Positions 322-48,303 of a stretch of DNA of 64,000 nt are shown here, piece by piece. The notes below the pieces were generated by a model. That model did no database searches, was not told the origin of the DNA, and saw only the letters and a list, made by a program, of their open reading frames with translations. Every line of letters begins with the position of its first letter. The stretch's first letter is position 1. The stretch is from Alphaproteobacteria bacterium (GTDB lineage: Bacteria > Pseudomonadota > Alphaproteobacteria > Acetobacterales > Acetobacteraceae). The DNA lies in assembly GCA_017307285.1 (NCBI GenBank), contig JAFKFI010000048.1, positions 1 to 64,000 on the forward strand, in the 5' to 3' direction. The position numbers were made by a program, and so were the translations under genes.

Positions 322-2124
322 TTATCGGCGACCGGCCAGCCTCGTGAAGCCATCCGCGCTCCAGTCCTCGCTGCCCACACCGTGATGCACGAAGAACAGG
401 CCGTCGGGATCGTATTGCCGCTTCACCGCGAGCAGCCTCGGGTAGTTGGACCCCCAGAAGGAGCGCTGCCAGTTCGGCTCGAAGTAGTTGCTTTCGGAGA
501 CATAGGAGCCCGGCTCGGCCACCAGCTTGCGCAATTCGCCCGTCGCCGCATCGATGCTGGCGGCATGTTGCCGCGCGAGCGCGAGATCGGGCTCATGGCC
601 GGGAACACCGGGACGCGCCGGTGGTCCGCCGGTTGCGACGATCGCCAGCGCGAAGGCGTCCAGCACCGCCGGGTTCATGGCGGTGTCCCGCGCCGCCGCC
701 ACGGCCTCGGCGGGCGCGCCGGCCAGTCCCTTGTTGCAATGCCAGGCCACCCACCAATGCCGGGTCGCCGCGAACAACGTGTCCGCGAGCAACTCCCGAC
801 GGTCCTTCCGCAACAGCGAGGCGGGCAGCCAGGTGGATTGGTAGGCATGGAGGAAAACCCCCGTCTCCCCGAGATTGCCTGCCCAGAACACGTTGTCCGC
901 CGGCGCCCCCGGCCGATCGTCGCTCAGCACGACGCCTTGTGCTCGCTTGAGCAGAGCGGGGTTCCAGAAATTGCGGGCAGGCAAGCTCACGATCCTCGGC
1001 GCCGTCGTCACCCGGAAATCCTGCGGCGAGCCCGCGATCCAATCCAGGAACGGCCGCCAGACCGCCTCGGCCTGCGGCTTGTCCAACCCCTGAAACACCA
1101 TCGCGATCGTGACGCTGTTGTCGGGCTGGAACCTGATCTGCTCGCCCCAATGCGGGTTGAACAGGCTCTCGGCATAGAACGCGACCATGCGGCCGATCAG
1201 CCGGCGGAAGGCGGCATCGGAGGTCGCCTGGATCGTGGCGTTCACCCCGCCGAAGAATTCCGGCAGCTCCCGCGTGCGCAGCGTCAGCCGGGTAACGACG
1301 CCGAGGCTGCTCCCGCCGCCTCCCTTGAGCCCCCAGAACAGCTCGGGCTCGTTGCACGCATTCGCGGTTCGCGTCACGCCGTCGGCGGTGACGATCTCGG
1401 CCTCCAGCAGGCCAGCTGCAGCCATGCCATAGTTCTTCGAGAAACTACCGAACCCGCCGCTCTGGATCAGCCCGGCGACGCCCACCGTCATGCAGCCGCC
1501 GCCTTGCACATAGCGGCCCGCGTCGGTCGTCACCGCGTTATAGGCGTGTATCCAGATCGTGCCGGCCCCCAGCGTGACGGCGGGCTGCGGCGCCTGCTTC
1601 CCCTCGCAACCTCGGCCGACGAACCCGTCGTGCAGGGCGATCTCGTTGATCGCCCGCGTCCAGATCAGCAGGGAGTCGGCCGCGTTGGAGGTTCCCTGGT
1701 AGCTATGGCCGCCGCCCTTGACCACCAGCCGCAGCTTGTTTTCCCGCGCGAAGTTGACGGCGGCGGCGACGTCCTCGGTCGTGTGCGCCGCGACCGCGTA
1801 GGCGCTCGGCTCGGAGACCCACGCATCGGCCCAGCCGGTGGTCTGGGTCAGCGCCGGGTTGTCGCCGATGAAATACGGGTTCTTCAGCTCCTTGAACAAC
1901 GCGTCGCACGCGGCACCGCGCGGCGCATCGATGCACGCCTCGAAGGGCGATCGCAGCTCAACGAGTCGCCCGCCGACATCGCGCTTCAACTGCTCCCATC
2001 GTGCCGGCGCGGGCCAGCCTGGGTCGGTGGGGCGAACGCGGCGTAGGGGTGCCGCCGCGCGCGTCGGGGGGATCGGCAGGAGCGGAAGCGTGCCGGCGAG
2101 CGCGAGCAAATGTCTCCTGCGCAT
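322..2124 (-). CDS. Exported FAD-linked oxidase, BBE (berberine bridge enzyme) type
   Basis: A 600-residue flavoprotein of the PCMH/VAO superfamily. The N-terminus (residues 1-25) carries RRHLL followed by a hydrophobic stretch and an Ala-rich cleavage region, consistent with a Tat signal. The FAD domain has GGGHSYQG (His140) and GGGCMTVGVAG (Cys211), the two residues that in BBE-like oxidases bind the 8alpha and 6 positions of FAD covalently, so bicovalent flavinylation is plausible. The C-terminal BBE motif (SNYFEPNW ... YDPDGLFF) is present at about 555-590. It probably oxidises an alcohol, sugar or aromatic side chain in the periplasm; the substrate cannot be read from sequence. It is the last gene of a minus-strand operon, 18 bp after the MsrQ-like haem protein. 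Confidence 0.85.
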   Translation of the reverse strand: MRRRHLLALAGTLPLLPIPPTRAAAPLRRVRPTDPGWPAPARWEQLKRDVGGRLVELRSPFEACIDAPRGAACDALFKELKNPYFIGDNPALTQTTGWADAWVSEPSAYAVAAHTTEDVAAAVNFARENKLRLVVKGGGHSYQGTSNAADSLLIWTRAINEIALHDGFVGRGCEGKQAPQPAVTLGAGTIWIHAYNAVTTDAGRYVQGGGCMTVGVAGLIQSGGFGSFSKNYGMAAAGLLEAEIVTADGVTRTANACNEPELFWGLKGGGGSSLGVVTRLTLRTRELPEFFGGVNATIQATSDAAFRRLIGRMVAFYAESLFNPHWGEQIRFQPDNSVTIAMVFQGLDKPQAEAVWRPFLDWIAGSPQDFRVTTAPRIVSLPARNFWNPALLKRAQGVVLSDDRPGAPADNVFWAGNLGETGVFLHAYQSTWLPASLLRKDRRELLADTLFAATRHWWVAWHCNKGLAGAPAEAVAAARDTAMNPAVLDAFALAIVATGGPPARPGVPGHEPDLALARQHAASIDAATGELRKLVAEPGSYVSESNYFEPNWQRSFWGSNYPRLLAVKRQYDPDGLFFVHHGVGSEDWSADGFTRLAGRR

Positions 2125-3569: not shown

Positions 3570-4174
3570 CGCGCCGGTCGCGCGCCGCCGGATGCGGTCG
3601 GCAGGCGGGGAATATTCATCCGGAGATACCCGGCCGGCGGCTGGAACAGGCCGGGAGATTGCGGCCCGTAGGTCACGGACACCGCCTCCACGCTGCCGCG
3701 TCCGTATTGCGGGTCCTGTCCCTGGCCGCGCAGCACGATGCCGTCCGCGGTGACGCAGACCTGGCCCGACCGTCCCTCCGGCGCCTGCACGTCCCACACC
3801 GTGCACGACAGGCCCGCGACCCGCTCGGACCCTTTGCGGGTGAAGTGCATCCGCTCGCTCGGCAGGAAGTCCCGCACCAGCTCGGACTGCGTGGGCGTCT
3901 CGAAATAGACGTGCGGCTGCCGCATCACCACCAGCACGCGGCCGGCGTCGCGATCGACGATGAGATAGCCGGGCAGGCTGGTGGGCTCGACGCGGATCCT
4001 GCCGCCGCTGACATGCACCCGGATCGAGACCGGTTCCTGGTCGCGAGGGCCCTGGGCGCGGTACAGCACCGTCGCCTCGCGCGTCGGGGTCAATGGCGGA
4101 TGTTCGCTCGCCTGCGTCAGCCCCGGCGCGACAGCCGCAAGCAAGGCCAGCGCAGCGCGACGCCAGGCCGTCAC
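3566..4174 (-). CDS. Exported protein of unknown function (DUF4412-like), paralogue of 3003-3569
   Basis: 202 residues if started at the GTG at 4174, which overlaps the aat stop by 4 bp and opens a Sec signal (residues 1-23, ending QAS). The rest is beta-rich and soluble. The paralogue's motifs recur in order: a PTREA/V start to the mature domain, a Y/LIVDRDAGRV strand, CTVW and VCVTADGIVL, then a C-terminal Y-x-P-Q-x-P-x-LFQ-P-x-GY-x-RM. The last motif is also in the downstream copy, so the two descend from one duplication. No catalytic signature is visible. It belongs to the five-gene aat operon. Confidence 0.7.
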   Translation of the reverse strand: MTAWRRAALALLAAVAPGLTQASEHPPLTPTREATVLYRAQGPRDQEPVSIRVHVSGGRIRVEPTSLPGYLIVDRDAGRVLVVMRQPHVYFETPTQSELVRDFLPSERMHFTRKGSERVAGLSCTVWDVQAPEGRSGQVCVTADGIVLRGQGQDPQYGRGSVEAVSVTYGPQSPGLFQPPAGYLRMNIPRLPTASGGARPAR

Positions 4175-4836
4175 GCCTGGCGCCCGGCCAGGGCCCGGAA
4201 CTCCGCGGCCAGCAAGGACGGCGGCGGCGCGGCGATCCAGCGCGCCGGCACGTCGACCGCTGCCGCGAGCAGGGATTTGTAGTCCTCCCGCGCGATCTCC
4301 TCGGTGCCGAACTGCGCCAGGTGGCTGGTGACGAACTGCGTGTCCAGCAGCCGGAACCCGCCGAGCCGCAGCCGCGCCACCAGATGCACCAGCGCCACCT
4401 TCGAGGCGTCCCGCGCGGTGCTGAACATGCTCTCGCCGAAGAACGTGCCGCCGAGCGCCACGCCATAGAGCCCGCCGACGAGGCTTCCTGCCTGCCAGCA
4501 CTCGACCGAATGGGCGTGGCCCATCCGGTGCAGCTCGCCGAACAGCCGCTCGATCTGATGGTTGATCCAGGTATCCTCGCGTCCCGGCGCCGCCGCGGCG
4601 CAGCCCGCGACGGTGGCCGCGAAATCCCGGTCCGCCGTGACCTCGAACAGGCCGGACATCACCGACCGGAACAGCCGGCGCGGCAGGTGGAAGCGGTCGA
4701 GCGGCAGGATGCCGCGCCGCTCAGGATCGAGCCAATAGAGCCGGTCGCCGCGCCGCGTCTCCGCCATCGGGAACAGCCCGTGCCGGTAGGCCCGCAGTAT
4801 CAGCTCCGGCGTGATCTCCACGATGCGCCGCGACAT
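4171..4836 (-). CDS. aat: Leucyl/phenylalanyl-tRNA--protein transferase
   Basis: Transfers Leu or Phe from its tRNA to N-terminal Arg/Lys of proteins, creating an N-degron for ClpS/ClpAP. Diagnostic motifs are FPMAE near the N-terminus, YWLDPERRGILPL, TWIN, GHAHSVECW, GGLYGVALGGTFFGESMFS and LLDTQF. The frame is open to an ATG at 4956, but I use the ATG at 4836 (MSRRIVEITPELILRAYRHG), which gives 221 residues, the family's usual size; the upstream 40 codons look like non-coding Pro/Gly-rich translation. It heads a minus-strand operon with exported proteins, which have no obvious link to the N-end rule. Confidence 0.95.
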   Translation of the reverse strand: MSRRIVEITPELILRAYRHGLFPMAETRRGDRLYWLDPERRGILPLDRFHLPRRLFRSVMSGLFEVTADRDFAATVAGCAAAAPGREDTWINHQIERLFGELHRMGHAHSVECWQAGSLVGGLYGVALGGTFFGESMFSTARDASKVALVHLVARLRLGGFRLLDTQFVTSHLAQFGTEEIAREDYKSLLAAAVDVPARWIAAPPPSLLAAEFRALAGRQA

Positions 4837-12636: not shown

Positions 12637-13629
12637 TCAGGCTTCCGTGCTCCGCCGCCGCCGAGCGACGCCCAATCCTGCAAGTCCGGCCGCCAGGATC
12701 AGCATGGAGGCCGGTTCGGGCACCGTGCCGACGGTGCCGATCGTGTTGCCGGCCGCGTCGACATAGAATCCGACGACGGTGCCGTGGTCGTTGATGCCGT
12801 TGATCGTCGTCGCAGTCGAACCGCTCGGATCCAGCGTCGTGAATATCCCGTTGATGTCGAGGAACCCGTGCATCACCCCGGCCGCATCCACGTAATCGCC
12901 GACGATGTCGCCCAGATTGTTGACGCCGAGGGCCTGGGTCGAGTTAGAGCCCGGAGCCTGGAACGACTTGATCGTCCCGCCGATATCCGCGAAGGCGGAG
13001 AACAACGGCGTACCCGTGGCGTTGTACTGGTAGAAGCCGACGACTTCTCCGGAATTGTTCACACTGGTCGCTTGGCTGTTGAAATTCGTCGGCAGCAGCG
13101 CGTTGATGTTGGTGAAGGTCGGACTCGCGAATCCGGGACCGCCGGACACAGTGCCGGCGATCTGTCCGGTCGCGCCCGCAGGATCGTGCGACCAATAGCC
13201 AGCAGCGGTCGTACCGGCCTGGTTGATGCCGAGCAGCTGGGTGAAGGCGAAGCCAGGCTTGTTGACGGTGGTGAAGGTGCCGCCCTGCCCGCCGGTATTG
13301 GCGAAGCCGCTGGTGACGCCGCCGGTAATCGAGAAGCCAACGGTGGTGCCGCCGCCGCTGATGCCGATAACCTGCGTGCCGCCGTCAGCCCCCGGCACGT
13401 TCAGCCGTGTGAAGTTGCCCGCCACCGGCGGCAGCGTGAGCGTGAAGCCGTTGAACGTTGTCGCATTGCCATAACCGGCGATCGTGCCAGCGTCGTTGAC
13501 GCCGAGTGCCTGGGTGAAGGTGGGGTTCAGCGGGTCGATGATATTGGTGAAGGTGGTCGCGTGCGCGGTGCTGAACGTGGCCGCGGACACGACAACAGCT
13601 GCGCCGATCGCGCAGGCAAGGTGTCGCAT
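12637..13629 (-). CDS. PEP-CTERM protein with HAF-type repeats
   Basis: 330 residues. Sec signal (1-24), then about six repeats of the 'extracellular HAF' type, each with a core like GVNDAGTIAGY, GINQAGTTAAGYW, SVNNSGEVVGFY, GVNNLGDIVGDY and GINDHGTVVGFY. These form a beta-propeller-like surface. The C-terminus is a PEP-CTERM anchor: VPEPASM, a hydrophobic helix and ARRRRS. Very rich in Thr, Gly and Asn, as in other exosortase substrates. An AGGAG-type RBS (CGAGGAGCGAC) precedes the ATG. Confidence 0.85.
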   Translation of the reverse strand: MRHLACAIGAAVVVSAATFSTAHATTFTNIIDPLNPTFTQALGVNDAGTIAGYGNATTFNGFTLTLPPVAGNFTRLNVPGADGGTQVIGISGGGTTVGFSITGGVTSGFANTGGQGGTFTTVNKPGFAFTQLLGINQAGTTAAGYWSHDPAGATGQIAGTVSGGPGFASPTFTNINALLPTNFNSQATSVNNSGEVVGFYQYNATGTPLFSAFADIGGTIKSFQAPGSNSTQALGVNNLGDIVGDYVDAAGVMHGFLDINGIFTTLDPSGSTATTINGINDHGTVVGFYVDAAGNTIGTVGTVPEPASMLILAAGLAGLGVARRRRSTEA

Positions 13630-14369: not shown

Positions 14370-15269
14370 CTACACCATCGCGATCGGCCGCACCGGGCAG
14401 CCGGTCGCGCCCTTGTATTTGGTGGCGAGCAGGATGAAGCAGAAGCTGCGCACGCCGTCGCGCGCCAGCTCGTCGAGTGCCAGGTTCTCGATCAGATGCA
14501 CGCCGGCCTCGGCCAGCGCGTGCTGGTGCACCGGCATTCCCATGCGCGGGTCCGGGTTGGGCAGCACCTCGACCGCCATGTTGTCGGCGCCGATGGCGAC
14601 CACGCCGCGCGAGGTCAGCCAGCGTGCGGCGGGGACATCGATGCCGGGCTCGCCTTCGAGGTAGCGCGCATTGTCGACGCCGAAATAGCGGCCCCAGCCA
14701 GTGCGGATCAGCGCTACGTCGCCTTCGCCGATCTGCACGCCGGCGGCCTCTTCGGCGCGTGCGAGATCATCCGGCGTGACGACCCGGCCCGGAGTGAGGT
14801 GCGACGAGCCGTCGAACCCAGCCACGTCGAGCAGCACGCCGCGCGTCACCATCGGCGGCATCTGCTCGATGCCGAGGCGTTCGAGCCCCCAATCGGTCAC
14901 GGTCTCGTTGGCGTCGAAGCCGTTATAGAGCCGGTCGCCCTTGGTGAAGTGGCCGAGCGCGTCGATATGCGTCCCGACATGCGTGGTCATCTCGATGCGC
15001 TCGAGGTTGCCGCCCGCGTCGTTGGTGAAACCGAGCTTGCGCCGCCGCTTCAGGCTGTCGCGCCAGGAGGCGAAGATCGACAGCAGGTACGGCGTCTGGT
15101 TGGGCGCCATGTAGGGCGCCCCGGCGGCGATGGTGTGGCTGACGTCGTAGATGCGCGCTTGCCGGACCAGGCCGAGAGCGGCGAGCCGCCGTTCCGCCGT
15201 GAGCAGATTGGCGGCGCCGATCTGGTCGGCGGCACCCCATTGCGAATGATCGTGTGTGACGCCGCTCAT
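14370..15269 (-). CDS. Cyclase-family metal hydrolase (kynurenine-formamidase-like)
   Basis: 299 residues from ATG 15269 (GGAGAA eight bases upstream). The cyclase-family metal motif HVGTHIDALGHF (HxGTHxDxxxH) is present at about 106-117; RTGWGRYFG and CFILLATKYKGATG are further family motifs. Members hydrolyse amides or lactones such as N-formylkynurenine or isatin, or act as polyketide cyclases, using Mn or Zn. Proteins of this length subclass (about 300-330) are common in Alphaproteobacteria with unknown substrate. Not clearly in an operon. Confidence 0.85.
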   Translation of the reverse strand: MSGVTHDHSQWGAADQIGAANLLTAERRLAALGLVRQARIYDVSHTIAAGAPYMAPNQTPYLLSIFASWRDSLKRRRKLGFTNDAGGNLERIEMTTHVGTHIDALGHFTKGDRLYNGFDANETVTDWGLERLGIEQMPPMVTRGVLLDVAGFDGSSHLTPGRVVTPDDLARAEEAAGVQIGEGDVALIRTGWGRYFGVDNARYLEGEPGIDVPAARWLTSRGVVAIGADNMAVEVLPNPDPRMGMPVHQHALAEAGVHLIENLALDELARDGVRSFCFILLATKYKGATGCPVRPIAMV

Positions 15270-15431
15270 GCTGTCGTTCTCCGTTCCGGTCAGGCGTGTA
15301 TCCTGACAGGGGCGGCGCGGCATGACGAGACGGGCGCCGCAGAAGGCCTACCAAACGATGACCGCGACGCCGGAGGGTCCGGCATCGCGGTCATTCGCCG
15401 TTCGGAACGCCGCCGGGCGGCGGACGGTGCT

Positions 15432-16004
15432 TCAGGCAATCCGGCCCAGCTTCGCGTTGTCGACGCCGCTCATATCGCCGGCATCGGCCAGCTTCGCGTT
15501 ATCGACGCCGCTCATGTCGCCCGCGTCCGCCAGCTTCGCGTTGTTCACGCCGACCATGTCGCCGGCATCGGCCAGCTTGGCATTGTCGACGCCGCTCATG
15601 TCGCCGGCATCCGCCAGCTTCGCGTTGTTCACGCCGACCATATCGCCGGCATCGGCCAACTTCGCGTTATCGACCCCGCTCATGTCGCCCGCGTCCGCCA
15701 GCTTGGCGTTATCGACGCCGCTCATGTCGCCCGCATCGGCCAACTTGGCATTGTCGACGCCGCTCATGTCGCCCGCGTCGGCCAGCCTCGCGTTGTCGAC
15801 GCCGGTTGCGTTGGCGCCGTCGGCCAGCGGCTGCACGCGCTGCGGAGCGGTGGACTGCTGGACCGCCTGGCCGCTGTGGTAGCGCTGGACGGTGTCTTCA
15901 TAGGCGGTGCGGAGCGGGTGGCTGTTATCCGTCCCGGCCGTGCCCTGGATCTGCCATCCGGCCAGACCCAGAACCGCAATCATCGCGATCATGGAAGTGC
16001 GCAT
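15432..16004 (-). CDS. Secreted protein made of 14-residue tandem repeats
   Basis: 190 residues. A short hydrophobic N-terminus (about 4-20, IAMIAVLGLAGW) serves as signal or anchor, followed by a polar spacer (about 21-66). Residues 67-178 are eight units of consensus SGVDNAKLADAGDM, and a truncated ninth unit ends the protein. Units 5 and 7 read VGVNNAKLADAGDM, so a 28-residue higher-order duplication is visible. Codons differ between units at silent positions, while protein sequence hardly varies. The unit has regular hydrophobic positions (V, L, M) and conserved D/N, which would suit a small solenoid. I do not recognise the family. RBS AGGGGAAAT upstream. Confidence 0.75.
   Translation of the reverse strand: MRTSMIAMIAVLGLAGWQIQGTAGTDNSHPLRTAYEDTVQRYHSGQAVQQSTAPQRVQPLADGANATGVDNARLADAGDMSGVDNAKLADAGDMSGVDNAKLADAGDMSGVDNAKLADAGDMVGVNNAKLADAGDMSGVDNAKLADAGDMVGVNNAKLADAGDMSGVDNAKLADAGDMSGVDNAKLGRIA
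15435..15806. repeat. 42-bp coding tandem repeats
   Basis: Eight full 42-bp units plus a partial ninth encode the repeats of the secreted protein on the minus strand. Units differ at several third positions (for example gcatcg/gcgtcc/gcatcc) yet keep the amino acids, so the array is not the product of very recent slippage. Confidence 0.9.
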
Positions 16005-16141
16005 CGGATTTCCCCTAACGAGCCCGGATGGTCATCATCCGTTGCAGGGGGTTTTCGCGCATTCCGGCCGCTGGCGCGGTGAAGCGGTTCACAGTTCCTA
16101 AGAAAAATACAAGATTCTTCGGCTGGCCGGAATCGCGAAGC

Positions 16142-17413
16142 TCAACGGCAGCATTCTTCCGCCAGCCACCACGTGAGCAGTGTCGTAGCCGCAAGAAAAT
16201 CCTTGATCTCCATCGCCTCGCGCGGGTTGTGGCTGCCGTTCCGGTTCCGCACGAACAGCATTCCCATCGGCACGCCACAGGCCGCGAACGCCGCCGCGTC
16301 GTGCGAGGCGGGGCTCCCGAGCTGCAACACCGGAATTCCCAGCGTCTCCGCGCCTGCCGTCAGCGCCGCCGCGATCGACGGATCGACCTTGCCCACCGCC
16401 GCGCGGGCCCGCGCGCCAATGTCGAAGCGCACGCGCCGCCGCTGCTCGATCTCCGCGATGATCGCGTCGACGCGCCGCTCCAGTTCGGCGAGCACCGCCG
16501 CGTCATAGGCCCGCACGTCGAGCGAGAAGCGGAACTCGCCGGGGATGATCGTCATGCCGTGCGCGTCGGCGTCCGTATGAAAGCGGCCGATGGTGCAGGC
16601 CATCGGAATGCCCCTCGCGTCGTATTCCTCCCACACCCGGTCGAGCGCCACGAAGAACTCCGCGCCCGCAAGTGCCGCGTCCCGGCGGAACCGGCGCGGC
16701 AGGCCGACATGGTCGTAGGCGCCCTCGATGCGCGCGGCGGGAAAACGGAAATTGCCCGGAATGCCGGTGCAGATCGCCACCGGCCGGTCCGCCTCGACGA
16801 GACTCGGTGCCTGCTCGATATGGACCTCCAGATACGCCCGCAAGCTCGCCGGGTCGAGATGACGCGCCCCCGCGCGCAGCGCATCTGGATTGCCGCCGCA
16901 CTCCGCAATGTGCGCCGAGAGCGGCCGTCGCGTGTCGCGCCGCAGCGCCTCCATCGCACCGTCCGGCAGCGTGCCGAGCGCGCCCCGGCTGCCGATATAG
17001 GAAACCTCGAACCACACGCTCTCCTCGGCCCGGATTGCCATGACGGTGAGATCGCAGGCGGGGGCGAGCCCCTGCCGCTTCAACGCGTCGACGGCGACGA
17101 GCCCCGCGATCACCCCGGCCGCGCCGTCGAAATTGCCGCCATGCGGCACGCTGTCGAGATGCGATCCGATGACCACCCGCTTGGCCGCCCGATCGCGTCC
17201 GGGCCAAGTCATATAGAGATTGGCCGCCGCATCCCGCGCGATTTCGAGACCAAGATCGCGCGCCGCCTGCTCGATGGTCGCATGTGCCCGTTGCTCGCCG
17301 GGGCCGTACGGGTCGCGGGTGACGCCCGGTGCGTCCAGGCTGTCGCGGCGCAGCGTATCGAACAGCCCGGTGGCGAGGGCGCGACTTGCCGCCACCGATT
17401 GGGCGATCTGCAT
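16142..17413 (-). CDS. M20-family amidohydrolase (N-carbamoyl-amino-acid hydrolase / allantoate amidohydrolase type)
   Basis: 423 residues. A binuclear metal hydrolase that splits N-carbamoyl amino acids, ureido acids or allantoate. Metal and catalytic motifs: IGSHLDSVPHGGNFDGAAGV (His85, Asp96), RAEESVWF (Glu130-Glu131), YLEVHIEQAP (His ligand and recognition) and the C-terminal SHNPREAMEI. The dimerisation/lid domain lies at about 210-330. Neighbouring genes give no purine or pyrimidine degradation context, so the substrate is open. Start ATG 17413 with AAGGAAAG upstream; divergent from the acyl-CoA dehydrogenase. Confidence 0.88.
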   Translation of the reverse strand: MQIAQSVAASRALATGLFDTLRRDSLDAPGVTRDPYGPGEQRAHATIEQAARDLGLEIARDAAANLYMTWPGRDRAAKRVVIGSHLDSVPHGGNFDGAAGVIAGLVAVDALKRQGLAPACDLTVMAIRAEESVWFEVSYIGSRGALGTLPDGAMEALRRDTRRPLSAHIAECGGNPDALRAGARHLDPASLRAYLEVHIEQAPSLVEADRPVAICTGIPGNFRFPAARIEGAYDHVGLPRRFRRDAALAGAEFFVALDRVWEEYDARGIPMACTIGRFHTDADAHGMTIIPGEFRFSLDVRAYDAAVLAELERRVDAIIAEIEQRRRVRFDIGARARAAVGKVDPSIAAALTAGAETLGIPVLQLGSPASHDAAAFAACGVPMGMLFVRNRNGSHNPREAMEIKDFLAATTLLTWWLAEECCR

Positions 17414-46867: not shown

Positions 46868-48303
46868 CTACGGGGCGAGCCACGCCGCGAACGCCTGGAA
46901 CAGATGGAGCGCGACGGGAAGGACGTAGGGCGCTTCGAGCAGCGCCTCCCAGAACAGCCAGAGCGCCAGAATCGTGAGCCCGACGCCGAACGCGACCTGC
47001 GCGGCGAGATAGGCGGCCAGCCGGGCGCGGGTTCCGTCCCGCCCCGGCTCGTCGAGCAGTGCCATTTGCTCGCTCGCCCAGTGTCGCAAGGGTGGGCAGA
47101 GCCAGGCGCCGAGGCTCATCGACCCGATCGCGGCATTCAGCGCGCTTGGAATCAGGGTCGAGAACAGGGTGGCGTATGCCCAATAATTGGCCGGGTCGCG
47201 CGGGTCGCGGGCGATGTTGTCGAGCAACGCCCCGACATGGGCGAGCGGCTCGCCGCCGGCACACAACAGGACCGCATCGGCCAATTGCAGCGCCGCGATG
47301 AGTGCCAGTGCCAGCAGCACCAGCAAGACGAGGCCGATTGCGAGATCCGCAAGACCCAACAGTAGCGGGGAGGGCGGTCGCGGGTCGCAGCCGCGCCGCA
47401 GCAGCGCACGGGTGAACCCGATCGAGGCCCAATCGAATGGGACATTTACTAGGGGAACGATACCCAGCATGACCAAGAATGTCCGCAAGAATTCGGTGCC
47501 CTCGCTGGTCGCGGACGCCATAGGCCGCTGTAGGCACCGGCCAATGCCAGGGGTAGGAATGTGGCCCAGAAGATCAGCAACCGGCCCCGCTGGCCGGCTG
47601 AACCGGCACTGAAATCGACAGCGACAGCGACAGCGATAGCGATAGTGCTCGCGATAGCGATAGCGACAGTGCTCGCGATAGGGATAGCGATAGCGAAAGC
47701 GACAGCCGCGTCCGCGCCAGTGACAGCGGCAGTGCCTGCGCCAGCGACAGCAAAAGCGCCAGCGCCACCGACAGCGAGCCAGCCGATCTGTCGCCAGCCT
47801 TCTGCTCGCAATCCGCGCCAAAAGGAAAAAAATTCAAAACTCAACGCGGCCATCACGGGCCCGCGGTGCCAACCGTCGGACTCCGGCATCAGGCCGAGGA
47901 AGCGGACCAGCTCCCCGTCTTCGCCAGTCCACACCCAGACAGCAAACAGACTGAGGAGCGGATAAACCAGCGCCAGCAACGTGCAACGGTCGAAGGAGCG
48001 ACCGGTCCAGTACGGATAGCGATGCCGGTTGCCGAAGGGCGACGGCAGCGACTGGTCTGCCCGCCCGGCATCCCCCATGAAGCCATCCAGCCAGTCCAGA
48101 GCCCGAGTAAGCAGCCGGATTTAGAGAGTTCGCGGCAAACCGCCCAGCGCCTGGGCCAGACGCAGCCGATCGCGGTCGTTACCGGGCTCCTTCAGGTCCG
48201 CGCTGAAGTGAAAGAACGCGATACTGAATGCTGCCAGCGCGCAAGCGCCGATCAAGCCAAGGATCGGCCACTTCTCCCCGGCGAGCCCGATGAGCTTGTC
48301 CAT
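46868..48303 (-). pseudogene. Broken membrane-protein gene (in-frame stop and frameshift)
   Basis: Three sense segments, reading right to left. Residues from ATG 48303 (MDKLIGLAGEKWPILGLIGA, one helix, then FHFSADLKEPGNDRDRLRLA) end at TAA 48123-48121. The same frame at once continues with IRLLTRALDWLDGFMGDAG and runs to 47449 through helices at LLALVYPLLSLFAVWVW, a low-complexity Ala/Ile/Val stretch and LLIFWATFLPLALAGAYSGL. Sense then jumps frame near 47520 to SATSEGTEFLRTFLVML and continues to 46868 with several helices. The coherent reading across both lesions suggests one former protein of about 475 residues; alternatively 46868-47521 could be a separate 217-residue gene from ATG 47521. 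Family and function unknown. Confidence 0.6.
47612..47790. repeat. Degenerate hexanucleotide-like tract (GCGATA/GCGACA)
   Basis: Imperfect tandem hexamers, mostly GCGATA, GCGACA and GTGCTC variants, inside the broken membrane gene. On the minus strand they encode a hydrophobic run of alternating Ala and Ile/Val. Because the period is a multiple of three, slippage alone by whole units would keep the frame, so the tract need not have caused the frameshift found about 100 bp further on. Confidence 0.75.

Follow-up and report, generated by a model that had tools for sequence, protein, structure and literature searches.

Six exported-protein genes of one Acetobacteraceae genome carry unequally multiplied copies of a short tail unit

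What kind of protein joins an export-signal-like start to a tandem array of 14-residue units, and what keeps the units alike? The question is raised by an open reading frame encoding 190 residues on the minus strand (15432-16004; ATG at 16004, stop at 15432) of the window, by which we mean the whole 64,000-nucleotide stretch analyzed here, from contig JAFKFI010000048.1 of an Acetobacteraceae genome (assembly GCA_017307285.1). An earlier note described a secreted protein of eight such repeats under strong purifying selection, and proposed an older 28-residue doubling, a solenoid fold and no known family. The array, of eight full units and a ninth partial one, was confirmed at the coordinates in Table 1. 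The signal-peptide-like start is common to the paralogues described below and, judged from sequence, supports a secreted product; L007 has the same MRT..IA..GL.GWQ.Q start pattern as the window protein, and AxA-type sites can be read by eye in paralogues.

From residue 67 the array runs TGVDNARLADAGDM, three SGVDN units, units of V, S, V and S type, and the truncated SGVDNAKL-GRIA. Tandem Repeats Finder reported a period of 42 bases (8.5 copies, 83% matches, score 494) and a second period of 168 bases (89%). The proposed doubling survived in part: V and S types alternate in units 5-8 only, and a unit-order test was not significant, the mean unit distance being lowest at lag 4 (4.5) and lag 2 (5.2), values matched by 7.6% and 10% of all unit orders. 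Because units 2/6, 4/8 and 5/7 differ by 2 bases per pair, some block copying happened.

Codons vary between units while residues are held, as had been claimed. When the eight full units are aligned, 14 of the 42 nucleotide columns are variable, and nine of these fall at third codon positions, where one third would be expected (binomial 0.017). By the Nei-Gojobori method, with all pairs of full units pooled, pS was 0.495 and pN 0.053, a ratio of 0.106, which bears out purifying selection; few changes replace a residue, namely S/V and D/N in the V-type units plus T and R in unit 1. In the other five frames of the array pN/pS was 0.52-4.7, so that the far lower value in the minus-strand frame shows the coding strand and frame to be correct. 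Two opposite-strand open reading frames (528 and 186 residues) were rejected as genes, since the silent-site pattern fits the minus-strand frame only; the longer is antisense to a Pfam-supported cyclase gene.

The fold of the region past the stop codon (15330-15432, 103 nt; z-score -4.76) was equalled in stability by 0 of 200 shuffles. Its 17-pair hairpin, without a long T run, is a probable transcription terminator, and the window gene therefore probably terminates its own transcript; a scan for a consensus promoter plus terminator at the gene gave no match. Its same-strand neighbors, both identified by Pfam, encode an M20 peptidase (16142-17413) and, on the other side, a cyclase-family hydrolase (14370-15323); we saw no link between either and the repeat protein. 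Elsewhere in the window, a PEP-CTERM protein at 12637-13629 on the minus strand (PF07589, E 1.2e-6) has several degenerate N..G...G.Y repeats (LGVNDAGTIAGYG, VNNSGEVVGFY, INDHGTVVGFY) and contains a 30-base tandem repeat at 13289-13354. A hexamer array at 47616-47777 (27.5 copies of a CGACAG/GCGATA-like unit), within the minus-strand open reading frame 47449-48078, encodes alternating A/I/V in a membrane-like stretch and may be a length-variable tract.

Table 1. Parts of the window gene (positions in the window) and its paralogues (contigs of the same genome)
Feature	Location	Strand	Description or basis
AGGGG, Shine-Dalgarno-like	16012..16016	-	7 bases 5' of ATG; read from sequence
Signal-peptide-like N-terminus, ~residues 1-24	15933..16004	-	Translation; no program prediction of cleavage site
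Conserved N-terminal segment, ~residues 25-66 (AYEDTVQRYHSGQAVQ...PQRVQPL)	15807..15932	-	Alignment with L002, L003, L004
Eight full 14-residue units, residues 67-178	15471..15806	-	Sequence, Tandem Repeats Finder, codon analysis
Ninth unit, truncated: SGVDNAKL then GRIA	15435..15470	-	Sequence; stop codon 15432-15434
17-pair hairpin, 37 nt past stop codon	15358..15394	-	Fold z-score -4.76
L002	C9		84 residues from second ATG; one unit-like tail GGGEQNGVDTTYLRR
L003	C30		Five units AAEQTGVDN, period 15
L004	C108, about 4030-4330		Three units, period 15; 65/112 aligned positions identical to L003
L005	C139		Nine units AGEQTGV, periods 14 and 16 mixed
L007	C76		67 residues; ASEQTGVDTNYRAG plus one degenerate unit
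L014	C108, about 785-850		Broken repeat-gene fragment

The window gene does not stand alone in its genome (G000; 5.68 Mb, 182 contigs, 98% complete). A search with the window protein matched four other contigs and, weakly, C76; alignment-based searches gave more support for C76 and added a fragment at C108:785, making the window gene one of six dispersed paralogues plus one fragment (Table 1). Common to the paralogues are an export-signal-like start and the unit core [E/D][Q/M][T/S/N]GV(D/G), present in 1, 2, 3, 5, 9 and 8+1 copies with periods of 14, 15 or 14/16 residues. The N-terminal segment AVQ.Y..G..VQ...PQ..P is found in L002-L004 and joins these to the window protein, which is identical to L002 at 30 of 64 N-terminal positions (E 2e-18 for the pair) and to L003 at 24 of 68 (E 8e-11). 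L005 and L007 have no clear N-terminal segment; L007 is tied to the family by its signal sequence (13/23 identical) and unit, and L005 by the unit alone. Compared with shuffled units, 1 of 1000 was as good as the real match for window-L003, and 0 of 1000 for both L003-L007 and L005-L007. The core has drifted, to DMSGVDN in the window paralogue and EQTGVG in L005, and in all six paralogues it (GVD or GVG) lies within 10 residues of the C-terminus.

Selection acts on the units of other members as well. In L003, pairwise comparison of the five units gave a total of 42 silent differences and 0 replacements over the nine-residue core; in L005, with nine units and a core of ten residues, pS was 0.413 and pN 0.047. 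Silent divergence of this extent implies that enough time has passed for the copies to diverge and that protein-level selection holds them. The earlier note had taken the repeats to be what the protein is built from, and homologues without them are nearly what we found: L002 ends in one unit-like tail, and L007 has a clear unit plus a degenerate one, which makes the repeats a multiplied tail motif and not a defining domain. The simplest history is of a tail motif once present singly and multiplied in some copies. We thus observe six exported-protein genes in which a tail unit of one to nine copies has been multiplied unequally and the copies kept by selection.

No recurring neighbor gene of the paralogues was seen in the open reading frame lists, alignment of upstream regions revealed no clear common promoter, and the pattern GGAAC-N14-19-GTT, tried as a common promoter, had one match, which was unrelated. 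The L014 remnant lies about 3 kb from intact L004 and a neighboring segment is also present in two copies, which suggests local duplication followed by decay. L040, a weak match in the same genome, contains no open reading frame with the unit; L041-L043 lay outside this inspection.

How far does the family extend? We searched with profiles of five paralogues (A1), of the repeat only, with one row from L015, an array in genome G259 of the same family (A4), and of the N-terminal segment (A5). A1 matched 3 of 40 genomes at E <= 0.01 (G000 and two weak matches); among 397 genomes of the family, with E <= 0.001, it matched three (G000, G259 and G357). A4 matched the same three of the 397, and one each of 299 order and 385 class genomes, both G000; A5 matched G000 and three weak matches among 147 genomes. 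In an 84,980-species collection, one scan matched 594 stretches and another 52, of which 0 were confirmed, and neither three scans of viral contigs nor phages gave a match. No clear homologue outside G000 thus emerged from profile searches of the family, order and class samples and the species collection; as part of the candidates per genome was scored in the large searches, weak relatives may be missed. Same-genus genomes were absent among the relatives searched, and the narrow distribution accordingly means one genome only.

On inspection, the weak matches in G023, G039, G014, G069, G472 and G357 contained no matching secreted repeat protein. On contig C79 of G014, two adjacent, near-identical open reading frames with signal peptides (L045/L049) end in ASTVSLYPPSQSAG without the unit and are apparently very short exported peptides. 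A tandem DNA repeat on contig C138 of G357 (L016), readable as the 14-residue APVAEGVNRCGINS, extends past the start of a polyprenyl-synthase-like open reading frame and was tentatively judged unrelated. The pattern EQ.GVD..Y occurred in 9 of 299 genomes, namely G000 (L002, L007) and eight others; six of the eight were inspected (L056 and L057 being left out), and five had it in unrelated or antisense frames, the remaining match, L058, being assigned to none of the listed open reading frames.

One counterpart of interest, L015, comes from the same family but from another genus, g50. Behind a signal-like start, 14-residue units SAEQDP[TVA]DAAYRTS are repeated at least eight times before the contig end cuts the array, and the two features, together with an AEQ....D..YR pattern, resemble those of the G000 family. 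Its unit was like those of L003, L007 and L002 (4, 2 and 4 of 1000 shuffles as good), and not significantly like the window unit (522 of 1000). The units are nearly identical in DNA (pS 0.025), which makes the array recent; it may share descent with the G000 family or be an independent invention. L015 adjoins a LysR-type regulator, and matching repeat DNA lies at a second contig end (L027).

The unit could also be a minisatellite that turns over fast and does little, the exported protein around it being dispensable. Occurrence in one genome, copy numbers that differ between members and the broken fragment near L004 would all fit this, but mostly silent unit divergence in three arrays is hard to explain without protein-level selection, and a pN/pS of about 0.1 had already weakened the idea; we regard it as very improbable.

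The claim that no known family matches the unit held in Pfam, NCBIfam and PHROGs. Pfam gave no family over cut-off, and NCBIfam no convincing match, for five of the six paralogues (all except L007) or for L015. In PHROGs, searched with the window protein, L003, L005 and L007, the lowest E was 0.0012 (phrog_5154, function unknown, against L003), which we took as chance, as we did the sub-threshold or marginal matches to PDB sequences. In the literature we found no account of a secreted orphan tandem-repeat protein in Acetobacteraceae and no paper with EQTGVD.

One similarity was strong enough to need weighing. A tblastn search of plasmids matched Met-rich repeats of CopA/CopB (best 9e-11), and in 7 of 12 records the matched stretch carries a copper resistance protein annotation, so that the window array might be a metal-handling, copper-related repeat, kin to the Met/His-rich arrays of multicopper systems. 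These PcoA/PcoB-type repeats resemble the window array in their GDMSG.D..K unit (period 15) and exported context. The Shewanella CopA array, with units DGGDMSGMDHSKMAM, is identical to the window array at 41 of 73 aligned positions, with 0 of 1000 shuffled units as good, and the window unit scores higher against the copper unit (173) than against that of L003 (92), which counts against the family reading. However, the window unit AGDMSGVDNAKLAD has one Met and no His: relative to the copper unit, M is replaced by V or L and H by N, and the last M is missing. The paralogue cores have neither residue, the acidic residues of the unit are not conserved in L005, and Pfam placed no multicopper oxidase or CopB domain over cut-off in the window protein, whose N-terminus differs from those of CopA and CopB. 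Searching G000 with a copper-protein array retrieved no donor repeat, only the window family and weak matches. Since the window gene and the EQTGVD paralogues have a common N-terminus, convergence is simpler than homology to copper proteins; on these sequence comparisons the likeness looks like convergence of two low-complexity exported repeats, and a metal-handling repeat akin to those of copper proteins is highly improbable. Our reading of the plasmid matches also covered Klebsiella (a repeat in the DNA adjoining a plasmid replication gene) and Ensifer, Sinorhizobium and one Streptomyces (all judged low-complexity); an unannotated Cupriavidus match was left untranslated.

Does the array fold? 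The solenoid suggested by the regular hydrophobic spacing found little to sustain it. Without an alignment, AlphaFold2 modeled the full-length protein at a mean pLDDT of 51, with what is possibly a short helix at residues 31-43. For the array alone (residues 67-190) the best model, at a mean pLDDT of 81.8, was a beta-solenoid with 5-residue strands in regular EEEEE--EEEEE-- coils, and the other four models lay at 34-42. At E <= 10, a Foldseek search of the best model against the PDB returned 221 matches, headed by pentapeptide-repeat proteins with MfpA best (2.3e-3); none reached E <= 0.001. Pentapeptide repeats have a five-residue A(D/N)LxX period, whereas that of the window array is 14 with no Pfam match, and the likeness of fold to MfpA is a weak one, resting on a model itself in doubt.

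The array could form a short two-sided beta-solenoid of 7+7 residues per coil, or an amyloid-like stack, and serve as a rigid cell-surface rod. The one regular model favors this, as does the Q-x-G-x-x-N-x-A spacing in L003, which is reminiscent of the curlin repeat. Yet the period of curlin repeats (PF07012) is about 22, against 15 in L003, the five paralogues searched have no Pfam match over cut-off, and neither a curlin repeat nor a CsgG channel was found over cut-off in the 98%-complete G000 (CsgG best E 0.19), which speaks against a CsgA-type curli system. The disagreement among models and the mixture of 14- and 16-residue units in L005 also argue against a rod. According to the portion of one study drawn on here (PMC11795689), random perfect repeats yield confident but implausible AlphaFold2 beta-solenoids, inconsistent within sets of five, and the pattern of our models corresponds to the artefact described there. 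A solenoid is possible but unsupported by these models, and we consider the rod unlikely.

We consider it quite possible, if somewhat short of probable, that the unit is a partner-binding short linear motif whose copies add avidity. The single partner bound by the motif would be periplasmic, extracellular or located in the outer envelope; with added copies the same ligand would take on a flexible, multivalent form, the N-terminal segment would act as spacer or anchor, and the array need not fold as a solenoid. In L002 and L007, with one and two units, the motif stays close to the C-terminus, which implies that one copy can be useful, and the varying unit length (14; 15; 14 and 16 mixed in L005) is easier to reconcile with a flexible string than with a strict coil. 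Against a binding motif, the open reading frame lists showed no recurring neighbor gene, a folded repeat would equally show purifying selection on its units, core drift (DMSGVDN against EQTGVG) makes one common partner uncertain, and L005 is tied to the family by its unit only. That a single C-terminal ligand motif was expanded separately, with different periods and to 3 to 9 copies, into a graded monovalent-to-multivalent series of envelope or extracellular ligands is a more doubtful proposition.

The same layout could belong to a secreted precursor that is processed to release multiple copies of a single signal or antimicrobial peptide. A signal sequence does precede near-identical short units, and K or R occurs in every unit of the window, L005 and L015 arrays. 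But no cleavage site is conserved (R, H, H, H at the basic position in L003), genes for processing or export were not recognized next to the paralogues, and single-unit members exist, all of which leaves a precursor quite improbable.

Lineage-restricted exported short-repeat proteins are a familiar kind; the graded paralogue series is the unusual part. Both a confident solenoid model and a strong tblastn match to copper proteins can mislead for repeats of this sort. Within one genome there is a natural copy series (1, 2, 3, 5, 9, 8+1) of one short exported motif, and silent substitutions show that the copies are kept by selection. With such a series, the reason why short motifs become multiplied in exported proteins of bacteria can be tested directly.
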